From the NCBI GenBank assembly GCA_017427945.1, contig JAFRRT010000027.1:59357-123356 (forward strand): a stretch of 64,000 nucleotides of DNA. Direction: 5' to 3'. Each line of letters starts with the position of its first letter. The first letter of the stretch is position 1. The notes under the pieces are model-generated. The model saw nothing but the letters and a program-made list of their open reading frames with translations. It ran no database searches and was not told the origin of the DNA. Source of the stretch: Muribaculaceae bacterium (GTDB taxonomy: Bacteria; Bacteroidota; Bacteroidia; Bacteroidales; Muribaculaceae). The position numbers and the translations under genes are program-made. Below, piece after piece: positions 23,335 through 26,760 of the stretch.

Positions 23335-23955
23335 TTAATCCCAAACGGTTTTTAACTTAACAATATATTGTGTAATGAGACGCAACGTGTTGAGCTGGCC
23401 TTTTAGATAGAATCGATTGTATGGCAATTCTATGTCATAGCGACGCTTCACTTCTGCCTGAAGTGCCTTCAATTCTTCGGAAGACATTCCTAAGTCACAA
23501 GTGAGGTCACTATCGGGTGAAATAAGGATGCCTTCTATATCAGCATCAATCAGTTGAGCGCAATACTCCATGAGGCGCAATTGAATTGTGTCAAAGGCAA
23601 TCTCAATATTTTTGATTTTTGTTTCTTGAGGTCTAGCAGGTACCGGACGCGGGCGTGGTACACCATAATATGTTGATTGTTGTCTGGGTGGACGAATTAT
23701 ACCATACCTAGTAGCGACTTGAGGCTCTACTCGCGTCACATCACCATCGCTGCGTCCATTGCCTGGTTTTTGCATGGCGTATAATTCGTCAAAGCCATAA
23801 GCATTGCCGTCGATAGCGACCACCTCGGCAGCAGTCATTCCCGCACAAGTGCCTTGAATAGGGGTGGCAGCGACGATACCTGGTGCGAGTCCTGCCGCAA
23901 CAACGGCACCCACCGTAGTGAGCATCTTTTTCCCTTTATTCTTCTTTTTCGCCAT
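23335..23955 (-). CDS. YG-motif protein with C-terminal ACP-like domain, partner of the radical SAM enzyme
   Basis: 206 residues, not recognised as a known family. A Lys-rich start (MAKKKNKGKK) leads to a hydrophobic segment (about 12-33) without a good lipobox. Residues 50-110 are low-complexity and carry three Tyr-Gly motifs (Tyr53, Tyr84, Tyr97), two of them in YGIIRPP and YGVPRPRP. Residues about 115-206 resemble an acyl carrier protein: DLTCDLGMSSEELKALQAEV, then RRYDIELP. The usual Asp-Ser-Leu around the pantetheine Ser is Ser158-Ser159-Glu160. YG-P motifs are typical of lipoproteins paired with this radical SAM family, so the central part may be its substrate. The gene follows the radical SAM gene by 41 nt and is AT-richer than its neighbours. 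Confidence 0.7.
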   Translation of the reverse strand: MAKKKNKGKKMLTTVGAVVAAGLAPGIVAATPIQGTCAGMTAAEVVAIDGNAYGFDELYAMQKPGNGRSDGDVTRVEPQVATRYGIIRPPRQQSTYYGVPRPRPVPARPQETKIKNIEIAFDTIQLRLMEYCAQLIDADIEGILISPDSDLTCDLGMSSEELKALQAEVKRRYDIELPYNRFYLKGQLNTLRLITQYIVKLKTVWD

Positions 23956-23996
23956 AATAATAGGTTTTCTTTATTATATTAGACCATATTATCAGG

Positions 23997-25070
23997 TTAG
24001 AGTTTAATATTCTTCAATCGATTGTAGTGGCATGTCATAAACAAGTCACCATTTTCATCGCGCATGTGAAAACCGTTGCCCTGGCAATAGCGGAAAACCT
24101 CGCAATCCTTGCAGGCGCCACGTTTCATCCACTCGCGGTTGCGGAAAAGCTCAAAACGGTTCTCCCAGACATCCCAAAAACTGTCCTTGTAGATGTTGCC
24201 CTGGCTATAATCGCTGCGGATGCTCAGGCAACCCGAAATGTCACCATTGGCACGCACGCTTGCAACCGAAAGTCCCGCTTGGCAAAAGAAGAAATGGTCG
24301 CGTACAAGCCCTTCATATGCGCCCAAATATCCGTCACAGGCATAATTGATGTTGATTTTTCCCTCGATGCGTGTGGTGACGATGAAATTCAGCAAATCGC
24401 GGAACTGTTCATCGGTAAGCAGCAGGTCATTGTTGTTAGCAGCGCGCCCCATCGGGTCGATGATGAAACAGCGCCAATGGGTGACGCCAGCCTCGATGAG
24501 CAGTTGTTTGAGTTCATTCAGTCGGGGCAGGTTACGGGCATTGACACAGGTAATCACGTCCCAAGTAAGGTTAGGGATGGTCTGCACAGCCTCTATAGCC
24601 CGCATAGTGGCATCAAAGCTGGCGGTGGAATTCCTCAGCCAGTTGTGCTCCTCGCGCATGCCGTCCACATCAAGGGACAAAGAGTTAATACCGGCTTGGG
24701 CCAACTCGCGGGCAACGGCACGGTCAAGAAGCAGGCCATTGGTAACAAAACCCCACATGAATCCCCGTTCACGTATGACTCTGCCACAGTCCATCAGGTC
24801 GGGTCTAACCAGCGGTTCACCGCCCACTGTATCTACAATCACTTGAGTGGGGTCACAATGGGCAGCCACCTCGTCCAGCACAGGCAGGAAATCGGTAAAG
24901 GGCATATCGGGCACCATTGACTCCTTAAGACAGTCACTGCCGCAGTGCCGACACGACATGTTACAGCGCAGGGTACACTCCCAAAACAGTTCCCGCAAAG
25001 GGTGCTCTTTCTTGAGGCGCTCAACGTAGTCGTGAGTAATCTCCAGTTGTTGCTGTTGACGCTCGTTCAT
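23997..25070 (-). CDS. Radical SAM/SPASM enzyme of the Bacteroidales rSAM/lipoprotein type
   Basis: 357 residues from the ATG at 25070 (MNERQQQQLEITHDYVE); the longer frame has a poor N-terminus. The radical SAM Cys triad is Cys36, Cys40 and Cys43 (CNMSCRHC). SAM-binding GGEPLVRPDL follows. The SPASM region carries further Cys for auxiliary clusters (SGCLSIRS, CKDCEVFRYCQGNGF, TCHYN). The sequence style fits the TIGR04133 family, whose members are found beside small lipoproteins. Such enzymes modify peptide substrates. Its direct downstream neighbour is the YG-motif/ACP-like protein rather than a standard lipoprotein. Confidence 0.87.
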   Translation of the reverse strand: MNERQQQQLEITHDYVERLKKEHPLRELFWECTLRCNMSCRHCGSDCLKESMVPDMPFTDFLPVLDEVAAHCDPTQVIVDTVGGEPLVRPDLMDCGRVIRERGFMWGFVTNGLLLDRAVARELAQAGINSLSLDVDGMREEHNWLRNSTASFDATMRAIEAVQTIPNLTWDVITCVNARNLPRLNELKQLLIEAGVTHWRCFIIDPMGRAANNNDLLLTDEQFRDLLNFIVTTRIEGKININYACDGYLGAYEGLVRDHFFFCQAGLSVASVRANGDISGCLSIRSDYSQGNIYKDSFWDVWENRFELFRNREWMKRGACKDCEVFRYCQGNGFHMRDENGDLFMTCHYNRLKNIKL

Positions 25071-25332
25071 GATGGATAGGTATTTGCTCGCAAAAATGTA
25101 ACCGCACTGGGAGTTAAAAGGTGCATTGAAAGATGCAAATTTCGCCAAAATCCTTGATTTATGCAAGATATTTTCATCAAATCATGAAAATATTCCCATT
25201 CGTTTCTCGTTAGATAAAATAGCGGCAAGTTTTATGTCTTTAGCGTTAACGAATTTCTGAGAATTTTGATAAATTTCTAATTTTCAGTTAATTAGATATC
25301 ATTTAAGTCTCATTTATTAAAAACACAGATTT

Positions 25333-26760
25333 ATGAATAGATTAATCAATTTCCTTCTGGCCTTATCGTTATTCGGTTTATTAACGAGTTGCTCAGATAA
25401 TACTTGGAACAGTTCGCCCATCGACGACATCGAGTCCAACGGGAATGTTGTCGACCTCTGCTCTCCAGACTTATGGTCGTTGGCTTCGGTTCCAGCCGAT
25501 CCTTCACTTTTCCCCGAGGCAGCTTTAAGCAATGATGTTGCCTCTGGCAAGAACCGCGCGTTGCTGTCCTGGTACTGTGTGGACCGCTTGTTCACTAAGC
25601 GCGACTCACCCTATGCTCCAGGATACATCAAGAGTGACTTGGATGGCTTGTCATATCCTTATGCTCGAGAGGTTCCCCTCTATGAAGTGTACCCCGGTCA
25701 TGCTCTCAACTATGGCGAGTCAAAGGTGGTCCAGACGCTGAATCTGTCGTTCTATCCAAGGGAACGCGGCCCCTACAACCTTGACGCCATCAATGTTGAT
25801 GAAGAGGGTTATCTGCGTTACCCCGAGGGGCGATGGGGCGGTATCATGTGCAAACTTGACAATACCAACTTAGAGCAAGCCGATATCGAGTATATCCAGT
25901 TCTGGCTGCTGGATCCGTTCATGGATCCTTATTTGGACAACGAGGATGGCGGCTATCTTTACTTCAACCTGGGTGATGTGAGTGAAGATATTCTGAAGGA
26001 CGGTCTATTGAGTTATGAGAACGGTTTGCCCATCAATGGTGACGCCTCGTATGTTACCAAAACAGTCTGGGGTCAAGTCTCCTCTCATGCCCCACTGACT
26101 TATGCCTTCGATAACGCCAATGGTGCAAGTAGCCTTCAGGATGTCGGCCTTGACGGTCTCCCCAATAACGATGAATTTGAATATTCCTCTTATGCCAACT
26201 ACCTGAATCAGTTACGCGCAGTTTTATCTGAGTCCACATTCGTCACCATGCTGAACGATCCGTTCTCACCCTTCAATGACCCTGCCGGTGACAACTATTC
26301 ATATTTTCTCAGCAATTACTACGACCTCAAGAGGTATTCGATCATCGAGCGTTACAAGCACTATAACGGAACTGACGGCAACTCGCTCCCACAGAACATT
26401 GCAAGCGACACACAGTACCAGACGGCTCGTTCAACGCCCGATGTCGAGGACATCAACCAGGATTTCACGCTTAACGAGTCGGAGCGTTATTTCCAGTACT
26501 GCGTCGCGATTCATCCCGATTCGCTCAAGGTGGGCACGAACTATATCACCGACATTAACGTATCCAATGTTCATACTCGCAATGGCCAGACACAGGTGGC
26601 AACGTGGTACCAGTTCACCATCCCTCTGAAAGATTATCAGAAGAAAGTAGGTTCCATCCAGGATTTCTCCAACATACGTTTCATTCGCATTTACTTGACG
26701 GGATTCAAGGCGACCACTCACTTGCGATTTGCTACGCTCGAGTTGACCGATGGCGAGTGA
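25333..26760 (+). CDS. Lipoprotein made of a single SprA-like module
   Basis: 475 residues. A lipoprotein signal ends at LLTSC (Cys20). Nearly the whole mature part follows an internal segment of SprA, the roughly 2,400-residue type IX secretion translocon and gliding protein. Matching stretches include GKNRALLSWYCVDRLFT, NLSFYPRERGPYNLD, GRWGGIMCKLDNTN, IEYIQFWLLDPF, YLYFNLGDVSEDILKDGLLS and FIRIYLTGFKATTHLRFATL. The protein ends just where SprA would continue (LELTDGE, stop), and a terminator follows, so this is a free module and not a window artefact. No other T9SS gene is present here. Its role is unknown; it may cap or bind a secretion channel or have been recruited to a new job. Confidence 0.85.
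   Translation: MNRLINFLLALSLFGLLTSCSDNTWNSSPIDDIESNGNVVDLCSPDLWSLASVPADPSLFPEAALSNDVASGKNRALLSWYCVDRLFTKRDSPYAPGYIKSDLDGLSYPYAREVPLYEVYPGHALNYGESKVVQTLNLSFYPRERGPYNLDAINVDEEGYLRYPEGRWGGIMCKLDNTNLEQADIEYIQFWLLDPFMDPYLDNEDGGYLYFNLGDVSEDILKDGLLSYENGLPINGDASYVTKTVWGQVSSHAPLTYAFDNANGASSLQDVGLDGLPNNDEFEYSSYANYLNQLRAVLSESTFVTMLNDPFSPFNDPAGDNYSYFLSNYYDLKRYSIIERYKHYNGTDGNSLPQNIASDTQYQTARSTPDVEDINQDFTLNESERYFQYCVAIHPDSLKVGTNYITDINVSNVHTRNGQTQVATWYQFTIPLKDYQKKVGSIQDFSNIRFIRIYLTGFKATTHLRFATLELTDGE

Follow-up and report, generated by a model that had tools for sequence, protein, structure and literature searches.

How a radical SAM enzyme comes to be paired with a Tyr-Gly (YG) protein that ends in a domain resembling acyl carrier protein (ACP), and what that domain does there, is the question raised by two genes in a 64,000-nucleotide stretch of DNA from a Muribaculaceae bacterium (GCA_017427945.1, contig JAFRRT010000027.1), hereafter the window. 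An earlier note on this DNA proposed that the likely substrate of the enzyme is fused to, or presented by, a carrier-like domain with an altered DSL motif. The reading favoured here, to which we attach an even chance, is that of a dedicated modification unit: the enzyme would modify the YG linker of its partner, the partner would be exported with a swappable C-terminal passenger, and the tail of the window protein would serve for docking.

The enzyme and its partner in the window

Both genes called in the earlier note were recovered on the minus strand, with the partner gene 41 nt downstream of the enzyme gene (Table 1). The assignment of the enzyme to the radical SAM/SPASM proteins, made from a CNMSCRHC motif and SPASM cysteines, holds: over its full length it scored 500.7 bits against the TIGR04133 profile (curated cut-off, 425), it passed Pfam Radical_SAM, and it reached 34.6 bits against SPASM PF13186 (cut-off, 21.5). 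An alternative TTG start at 25166 is possible. Twelve cysteines (C36, C40, C43, C47, C175, C245, C263, C281, C320, C323, C329 and C347) were found in all 59 aligned enzymes, while the position four residues after C329, which is presumably a cysteine in canonical SPASM domains, is a glycine in the window enzyme. The nearest solved structures by profile comparison include cytosylglucuronate decarboxylase, 5wgg, PqqE, SkfB and an anaerobic sulfatase-maturating enzyme, and none of the nearest structures gives the reaction of the window enzyme.

Table 1. Features of the gene pair, with positions in the window
Feature	Position	Strand	Basis
Radical SAM/SPASM enzyme, TIGR04133, 357 aa (ATG at 25070)	23997..25070	minus	Profile score
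CxxxCxxC radical SAM cluster motif, C36/C40/C43	24942..24965	minus	Cys in 59/59 aligned sequences
SPASM region, C263 to C347 (C263, C281, C320, C323, C329, C347)	24030..24284	minus	PF13186 and alignment
Partner protein, 206 aa, probable substrate	23335..23955	minus	Open reading frame, homologue alignment, gene pairing
Partner leader, aa 1-39, basic and hydrophobic segment	23839..23955	minus	Homologue alignment, regular expression
MTAAEVVAIDGNAYGFDELYAMQ region, aa 40-66, conserved motif	23758..23838	minus	Alignment of partners
Tyr84-Gly85, YGIIRP	23701..23706	minus	Invariant in 50/50 ACP-type homologues
Tyr97-Gly98, YGVPRP	23662..23667	minus	Tyr97 in at least 90% of 50 homologues
ACP-derived C-terminal domain, aa 117-206	23338..23607	minus	PF00550 and profile comparisons
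Ser159, aligned exactly with the phosphopantetheine serine of ACP	23479..23481	minus	Alignment
GQLNTLRL motif, aa 186-193	23377..23400	minus	Conserved in window subgroup

Conservation and spread of the pairing

The genus of the window contains 80 TIGR04133 genes in 64 of 101 genomes (E <= 1e-60), and 79 of these, the window included, were examined, a partial gene of genome G074 being left out; 40 of the loci had first been picked for having a partner, and the census was later completed to 79. According to their score against the window enzyme, the genus enzymes split into 47 (>= 508 bits, clade A) and 32 (<= 473 bits), and all 47 fell into one clade, with a support of 95, in a tree of 215 sequences (FastTree, midpoint rooting). 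An ACP-tailed partner was present in 45 of the 47 clade-A loci, so that the pairing with a YG protein was borne out by the neighbourhood survey. Elsewhere in clade A, L055 has TonB-tailed partners only, and L274, assigned to this group from its enzyme score before the tree was tested, has a partner (L274:1494-1949) with EITAADEVQID and one YGPP, but with neither a tail nor a hydrophobic segment; as it lacks this segment, the L274 partner does not suit export. The gap between enzyme and partner genes was -36 to 67 nt in 42 of 46 loci, where small negative values may be artefacts, as each gene was assumed to begin at its earliest possible start codon.

No ACP or TonB tail was found at the 32 other TIGR04133 loci of the genus, 29 of which have a YG lipoprotein-like neighbour upstream of the enzyme. 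Thus, the type of partner follows the enzyme tree. Outside the genus, 136 loci were examined (76 named, 40 from the order and 20 from the family, with 134 distinct enzymes, so that the sets overlap slightly); the named loci were the best 80 of 371 confirmed candidates, less four that were already genus loci. A leader-YG-ACP or leader-YG-TonB partner was found at none of the 136. By the partner rules, the YG lipoprotein-like neighbour is of the longer kind at 98 of the outside loci and short at 16; no partner was found by these rules in 25 of the 215 loci, 21 of them outside the genus, where rare fusions may therefore have been missed.

The sister lineage of the window clade (parent node support, 96) consists of L108 and L109 from Bacteroides and L254, L255, L259 and L266 from other genera of the family. 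Five of these six loci encode a tail-less downstream partner that combines a Gly/Ala-rich segment with YGGP and a linker that is either rich in Pro or acidic; no partner was seen at L266. The partners of L108 and L109 carry an ITT/ITA-D..I motif resembling the TAAD motif described below. As the sister partners are tail-less and no tailed partner occurs among the 136 outside loci, the ACP and TonB tails were probably gained within the genus of the window, and the tailed arrangement appears, so far, in this one bacterial genus only. Genes resembling Ser/Thr protein kinases were observed beside the TIGR04133 genes of L108, L109, L266 and L254. The one at L108 (L108:871-2886) is fused to a TonB C-terminal domain; this kinase-like protein lies 2.1 kb away and was rejected as a TonB-type partner.

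Within 5 kb of the enzyme gene, the partner was the sole widely shared neighbour in the window subclade (BLAST clustering placed it at 25 of 26 loci and the next most frequent neighbour at 6 of 26). No conserved transporter or protease gene emerged, as no other neighbour recurred in more than six of the 26 loci (open reading frames of at least 90 aa, 5 kb), and a conserved operon beyond the pair was rejected for this subclade. The 21 loci of subclade 2 (L061-L073, L082, L085, L087 and L088) share a neighbourhood that looks like a fixed chromosomal site, with a secreted-looking protein of approximately 450 aa in 18 of the 21 and further genes that, from reading, resemble lytic transglycosylase, UvrA and DnaJ. 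In the window itself, a 475-aa secreted-looking protein (25333-26757; PF14349 SprA_N, E 8.5e-54) is encoded divergently from the pair.

Leader and Tyr-Gly sites of the partner

The ACP-type partners were compared in a 50-row alignment, which includes those of L040 and L048, loci without a whole enzyme gene, and leaves out those of L271 and L272. They share a common order of a basic/hydrophobic leader, a TAAD..IDG..FDEL motif, a Pro-rich or charged linker and the C-terminal domain, and five residues (M1, A42, A43, Y84 and G85) are invariant in all 50. One member, at L060 (L060:7738-8622), has a very long Lys/Glu-rich linker and 295 aa in all. The leader of the window partner resembles a signal peptide or membrane anchor; with a Kyte-Doolittle 17-mer maximum of 1.91, its hydrophobic segment is not a strong one, which counts against the proposed export. 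By regular expression, no lipobox was detected in the window partner, and one was present in 10 of the 50 homologues; the 40 that lack it likewise count against the proposal. The motif that follows the leader is more widely kept, with TAA[DEQ] in 49 of 50 ACP-type and [TV]AA[DEQ] in 16 of 18 TonB-type partners. As the TAAD motif is retained in the L274 partner, which is without an ACP domain, the leader is probably what the enzyme reads, and residues 40-66 of the window partner are a probable recognition element.

The earlier note counted three Tyr-Gly motifs. YG is indeed present at positions 53, 84 and 97 of the window partner, but the first of these is not a conserved YG: position 53 is Tyr in all 19 members of the window subgroup, and the next residue is Ser in 16 of them. 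Thus, two sites count rather than three, and a three-site pattern was rejected. The expected conservation of gene pairing and Tyr-Gly motifs in related genomes was found for both, with Y84-G85 in 50 of 50 partners. Tyr97-Gly98 is the weaker site (frequencies of 0.79 for Tyr and 0.68 for Gly in the 19-row subgroup), and this counts against the favoured reading. At both Y84 and Y97 the YG has a following Pro, a combination that we take to be the motif of TIGR04134 lipoproteins and that was seen too in partners outside the genus. The linkers of ACP-type partners hold 98 YG pairs, compared with 9.0 expected by shuffling, which, together with the invariance of Y84-G85, indicates that these sites are more than chance. 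A further point against the proposal is that, of the 25 YG pairs counted in TonB-type partners, 12 lie more than six residues from any Pro.

These patterns bear on whether the partner is a substrate at all. It might instead be a membrane anchor or accessory protein of the enzyme, with YG-Pro serving in structure or binding. Such a role would suit the conservation of the leader, which exceeds that of the linker (0.77-0.80 and 0.48, respectively), and the lack of any conserved, dedicated protease or transporter in the window subclade. However, the YG sites persist across partner classes with different tails, the excess of YG pairs is maintained while the remaining linker drifts, and some loci have two to four partners for one enzyme, as expected of substrates. 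We thus consider an anchor or accessory role unlikely, while allowing it a real share of the probability, and treat the partner as the probable substrate in what follows.

ACP ancestry of the C-terminal domain and loss of the carrier site

The C-terminal stretch of the window partner, which reads DLGMSSEELKAL..RRYDIELP, had been noted as ACP-like with an altered DSL motif. The first part of this description stands, as the domain is homologous to ACP by profiles, although its active-site motif is degenerate. Against PF00550 (cut-off, 20.8), the C-terminal 92 aa alone scored 21.5 bits and the whole protein 19.1 bits; at E <= 0.01, PF00550 matched 27 and TIGR00517 matched 23 of the 50 ACP-type partners. 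A partner at L066, with the same leader and YG core, exceeded the TIGR00517 cut-off (71.9 versus 70.45). The profile of the ACP-type partner family matched ACPs in the PDB at E 3.9e-15, whereas that of the 19-sequence window subgroup, which is more distant, had an ACP as its best PDB match at only E 0.011, with ACPs in 17 of 20 rows. When compared by hhalign, the window subgroup matched the ten relatives with a DS[LI] site at 95.2% (E 2.6e-8) but gave 2.4% with one single AcpP sequence; this value and the E of 0.011 count against the proposal. The homology is settled by those relatives in which the same leader and YG core precede a canonical DSL ACP, and a chance resemblance was accordingly rejected. 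Across the taxonomic family, 280 of 297 genomes contain a match to the family profile; among the matches listed, those outside the genus cover the ACP part only, except L206, which matches from profile position 55. This 406-aa protein (genome G302, another genus) ends in a canonical DSL ACP and was rejected as a family member, being without leader or YG-Pro core; its N-terminal part is unrelated to the partner family.

Whether the window domain still works as a carrier is a separate question. In that case, a phosphopantetheinyl transferase would load Ser159, and the YG peptide or the enzyme would act on the group held there. Such a carrier is suggested by the exact alignment of Ser159 with the ACP serine, by the DSL of nine relatives and the DSI of one (10 of 50 partners, with Ser at the site in 14 of 50), and by the MDSTEL that the best PDB match of the subgroup profile reads at the site. 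Any genome with an ACP would need at least one ACPS, and the window genome has two ACPS-family matches above cut-off. In addition, a holo-ACP fusion has been shown to be exported through the Sec system in E. coli (PMC3418276). However, the window reads SSE where ACP has DSL, the site is Glu in 12, Asp in five, Leu in one and Ser in one of the 19 subgroup members, the single Ser being that of the window itself, and the loci of the window subclade share no neighbouring gene for an enzyme that would use a carrier. The presentation by a working carrier that the earlier note suggested for the window protein is thus disfavoured, and we regard it as distinctly unlikely.

Moreover, the conservation of the domain lies elsewhere. 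Residues 181-196, which include GQLNTLRL, have a mean conservation of 0.90 in the window subgroup versus 0.67 for the site loop, and GQLNTLRL was not seen in the ten DS[LI] relatives. With Glu or Asp at the carrier site in 17 of 19 members and a conserved GQLNTLRL, a docking module is more likely than a carrier; a lost carrier site beside a conserved 181-196 segment is what a fold reused for binding may be expected to look like. Thus, this ACP-derived domain of the window protein probably serves for docking, and the DSL relatives are the likelier place for a working carrier. A mutual exclusion of lipobox and DSL was rejected, as the lipobox occurs in none of ten DS[LI] partners versus 10 of 40 others (Fisher p 0.18). 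In four loci with tandem ACP-type partners (L067, L069, L073 and L088), the first has DSL without a lipobox and the second a lipobox without DSL.

TonB-tailed paralogues and exchange of tails

Paralogues in which a TonB C-terminal domain follows the leader and YG core shared with the ACP-type partners were found in 12 of the 47 clade-A loci, although two of the 12 (L038 and L039) hold broken copies only; broken TonB-tailed partners, as fragments without leader or tail, were observed at L038, L039 and L040. PF03544 matched all 18 aligned TonB-type partners. Over the main aligned stretch, the TonB tails of relatives are 52-78% identical (top, 77.8%) to the C-terminal domain of the TonB encoded in the window genome in an ExbB-ExbD-ExbD-TonB operon (named from reading of the genes), and a second TonB copy in one relative's protein is 46% identical. 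From the former values, the partner tails look derived from TonB. No TonB-tailed partner lies beside the window enzyme in the window genome. The ACP-tailed gene is the last in all 11 mixed loci with both kinds of tail, and five loci have two ACP-tailed genes each. At L048 (genome G046), a TonB-tailed and an ACP-tailed partner form a pair for which no TIGR04133 gene was found in the 18 kb read or in the G046 assembly at E <= 1e-60, and this counts against the favoured proposal.

The likeness of these tails to housekeeping domains raises the possibility of mimicry, with anchored TonB and ACP copies acting as decoys or competitors that YG modification would anchor or activate. The close identity of the TonB tails to the TonB of the window genome would fit such a role, as would the derivation of the ACP tails from ACP and the one leader shared by both kinds; the ACP tails, however, are strongly diverged from AcpP (27% identity over 37 aa for the window) and are thus unsuited to mimic it. 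We consider mimicry very doubtful.

Proposed mechanism and its implications

In the dedicated modification unit that we favour, the cytoplasmic TIGR04133 enzyme would recognise the partner leader (the basic/hydrophobic segment with TAAD..IDG..FDEL) and make a radical C-H modification at the linker Tyr-Gly sites Y84 and Y97. The modified partner would then be inserted into the membrane or exported via its hydrophobic N-terminus, taking its swappable C-terminal passenger outward. TonB C-terminal domains act in the periplasm; this, along with the hydrophobic N-terminus, the 10 of 50 homologues that have a lipobox and the lipoprotein partners of other clades, suggests a membrane-bound partner whose tail lies outside. 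The passengers in the genus would stem from housekeeping domains, either the TonB C-terminal domain or ACP, and that of the window, having lost the carrier motif and gained the GQLNTLRL surface, would most likely be a protein-protein docking module. The gene pairing, the conserved leader and YG sites, the swapping of passengers, the ACP ancestry and the loss of the active-site motif can be read from the sequences; the role of the partner as substrate, the identity of the modified residue, export and docking are inferred from these. For the DSL relatives, and possibly the window via Ser159, there is a rather improbable variant in which a holo-ACP, its YG linker modified by the radical SAM enzyme, would be exposed in the periplasm or at the periplasmic side of the inner membrane, where it would present or transfer an acyl group.

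The TonB-tailed paralogues, the genus restriction and the relatives with canonical DSL go beyond the earlier note. The genus amounts to a natural experiment, in which one leader and YG core is combined with ACP with DSL, ACP without it, a TonB C-terminal domain or no tail, and the differing tails allow the part recognised by the enzyme to be told from the part that it delivers. DSL partners, if exported, would place acyl carriers outside the cytoplasm, while the TonB-tailed copies point to a testable envelope role.

Comparison with known systems

Among 344 genomes sampled from the order, 79 have TIGR04133 at E <= 1e-90 and 73 above its cut-off. Although the family is thus widespread, we found no paper among open-licence PMC papers that names it or TIGR04134. 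In the retrieved text of such papers, no ACP- or TonB-tailed radical SAM partner was found described, in line with the earlier note, which knew of no system with this arrangement; the main text of a survey of Bacteroidales RiPP clusters (PMC10352776) contains neither 'lipoprotein' nor 'acyl carrier'. The nearest printed case found comes from Roseburia, where one cluster encodes a radical SAM protein and, separately, an acyl carrier-related protein (PMC4573289). It exemplifies the TIGR04068/TIGR04066/TIGR04069 clusters, in which a radical SAM enzyme lies beside an ACP-related protein, but there the peptide-maturation acyl carrier-related protein is a separate gene, and the window domain reached 14.3 bits against TIGR04069 (cut-off, 70).

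TIGR04133 enzymes usually adjoin YG-motif lipoproteins, and the closest relatives of the window pair are the TIGR04133/TIGR04134 pairs of NCBIfam, which have the same enzyme family and an adjacent gene with a hydrophobic N-terminus, YG motifs and a C-terminal domain. The TIGR04134 profile matched all four longer outside partners tested (L110, L122, L173 and L220) and matched neither the YGGP protein of L108 nor the short one of L076. The window partner was rejected as a TIGR04134 lipoprotein, having no match to the profile; none of the 101 genus genomes has one above cut-off, and the window genome is not among the 43 with a match at E <= 0.01, a search of that genome alone being likewise without a match, as was its control. 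The window partner thus differs from these pairs in lacking both the TIGR04134 match and the lipobox, with an ACP tail (TonB in relatives) in place of the TIGR04134 domain. Its gene is placed downstream of the enzyme gene; at loci outside the genus with a YG neighbour, by contrast, the nearest such gene lies upstream in 100 of 115 cases. The short YGPP lipoproteins of the other TIGR04133 clade of the genus share the enzyme family, the YG-Pro sites and the hydrophobic N-terminus, but are shorter, mostly have a lipobox, lie upstream and have no folded tail that we could see, and their enzymes fall outside the window clade.

The tails themselves connect the partners to two further families. The C-terminal domain of the window partner is homologous to ACP (PF00550/TIGR00517), but has lost DSL and is fused behind a leader and YG linker; the partners of relatives share the C-terminal domain of the TonB energy transducer, with the leader and YG core replacing the TonB N-terminus. 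We conclude that the pair represents a genuine, conserved variation on the TIGR04133/YG-lipoprotein system; its probable substrate bears either an ACP-derived domain, degenerate in the window, or a TonB-derived one.
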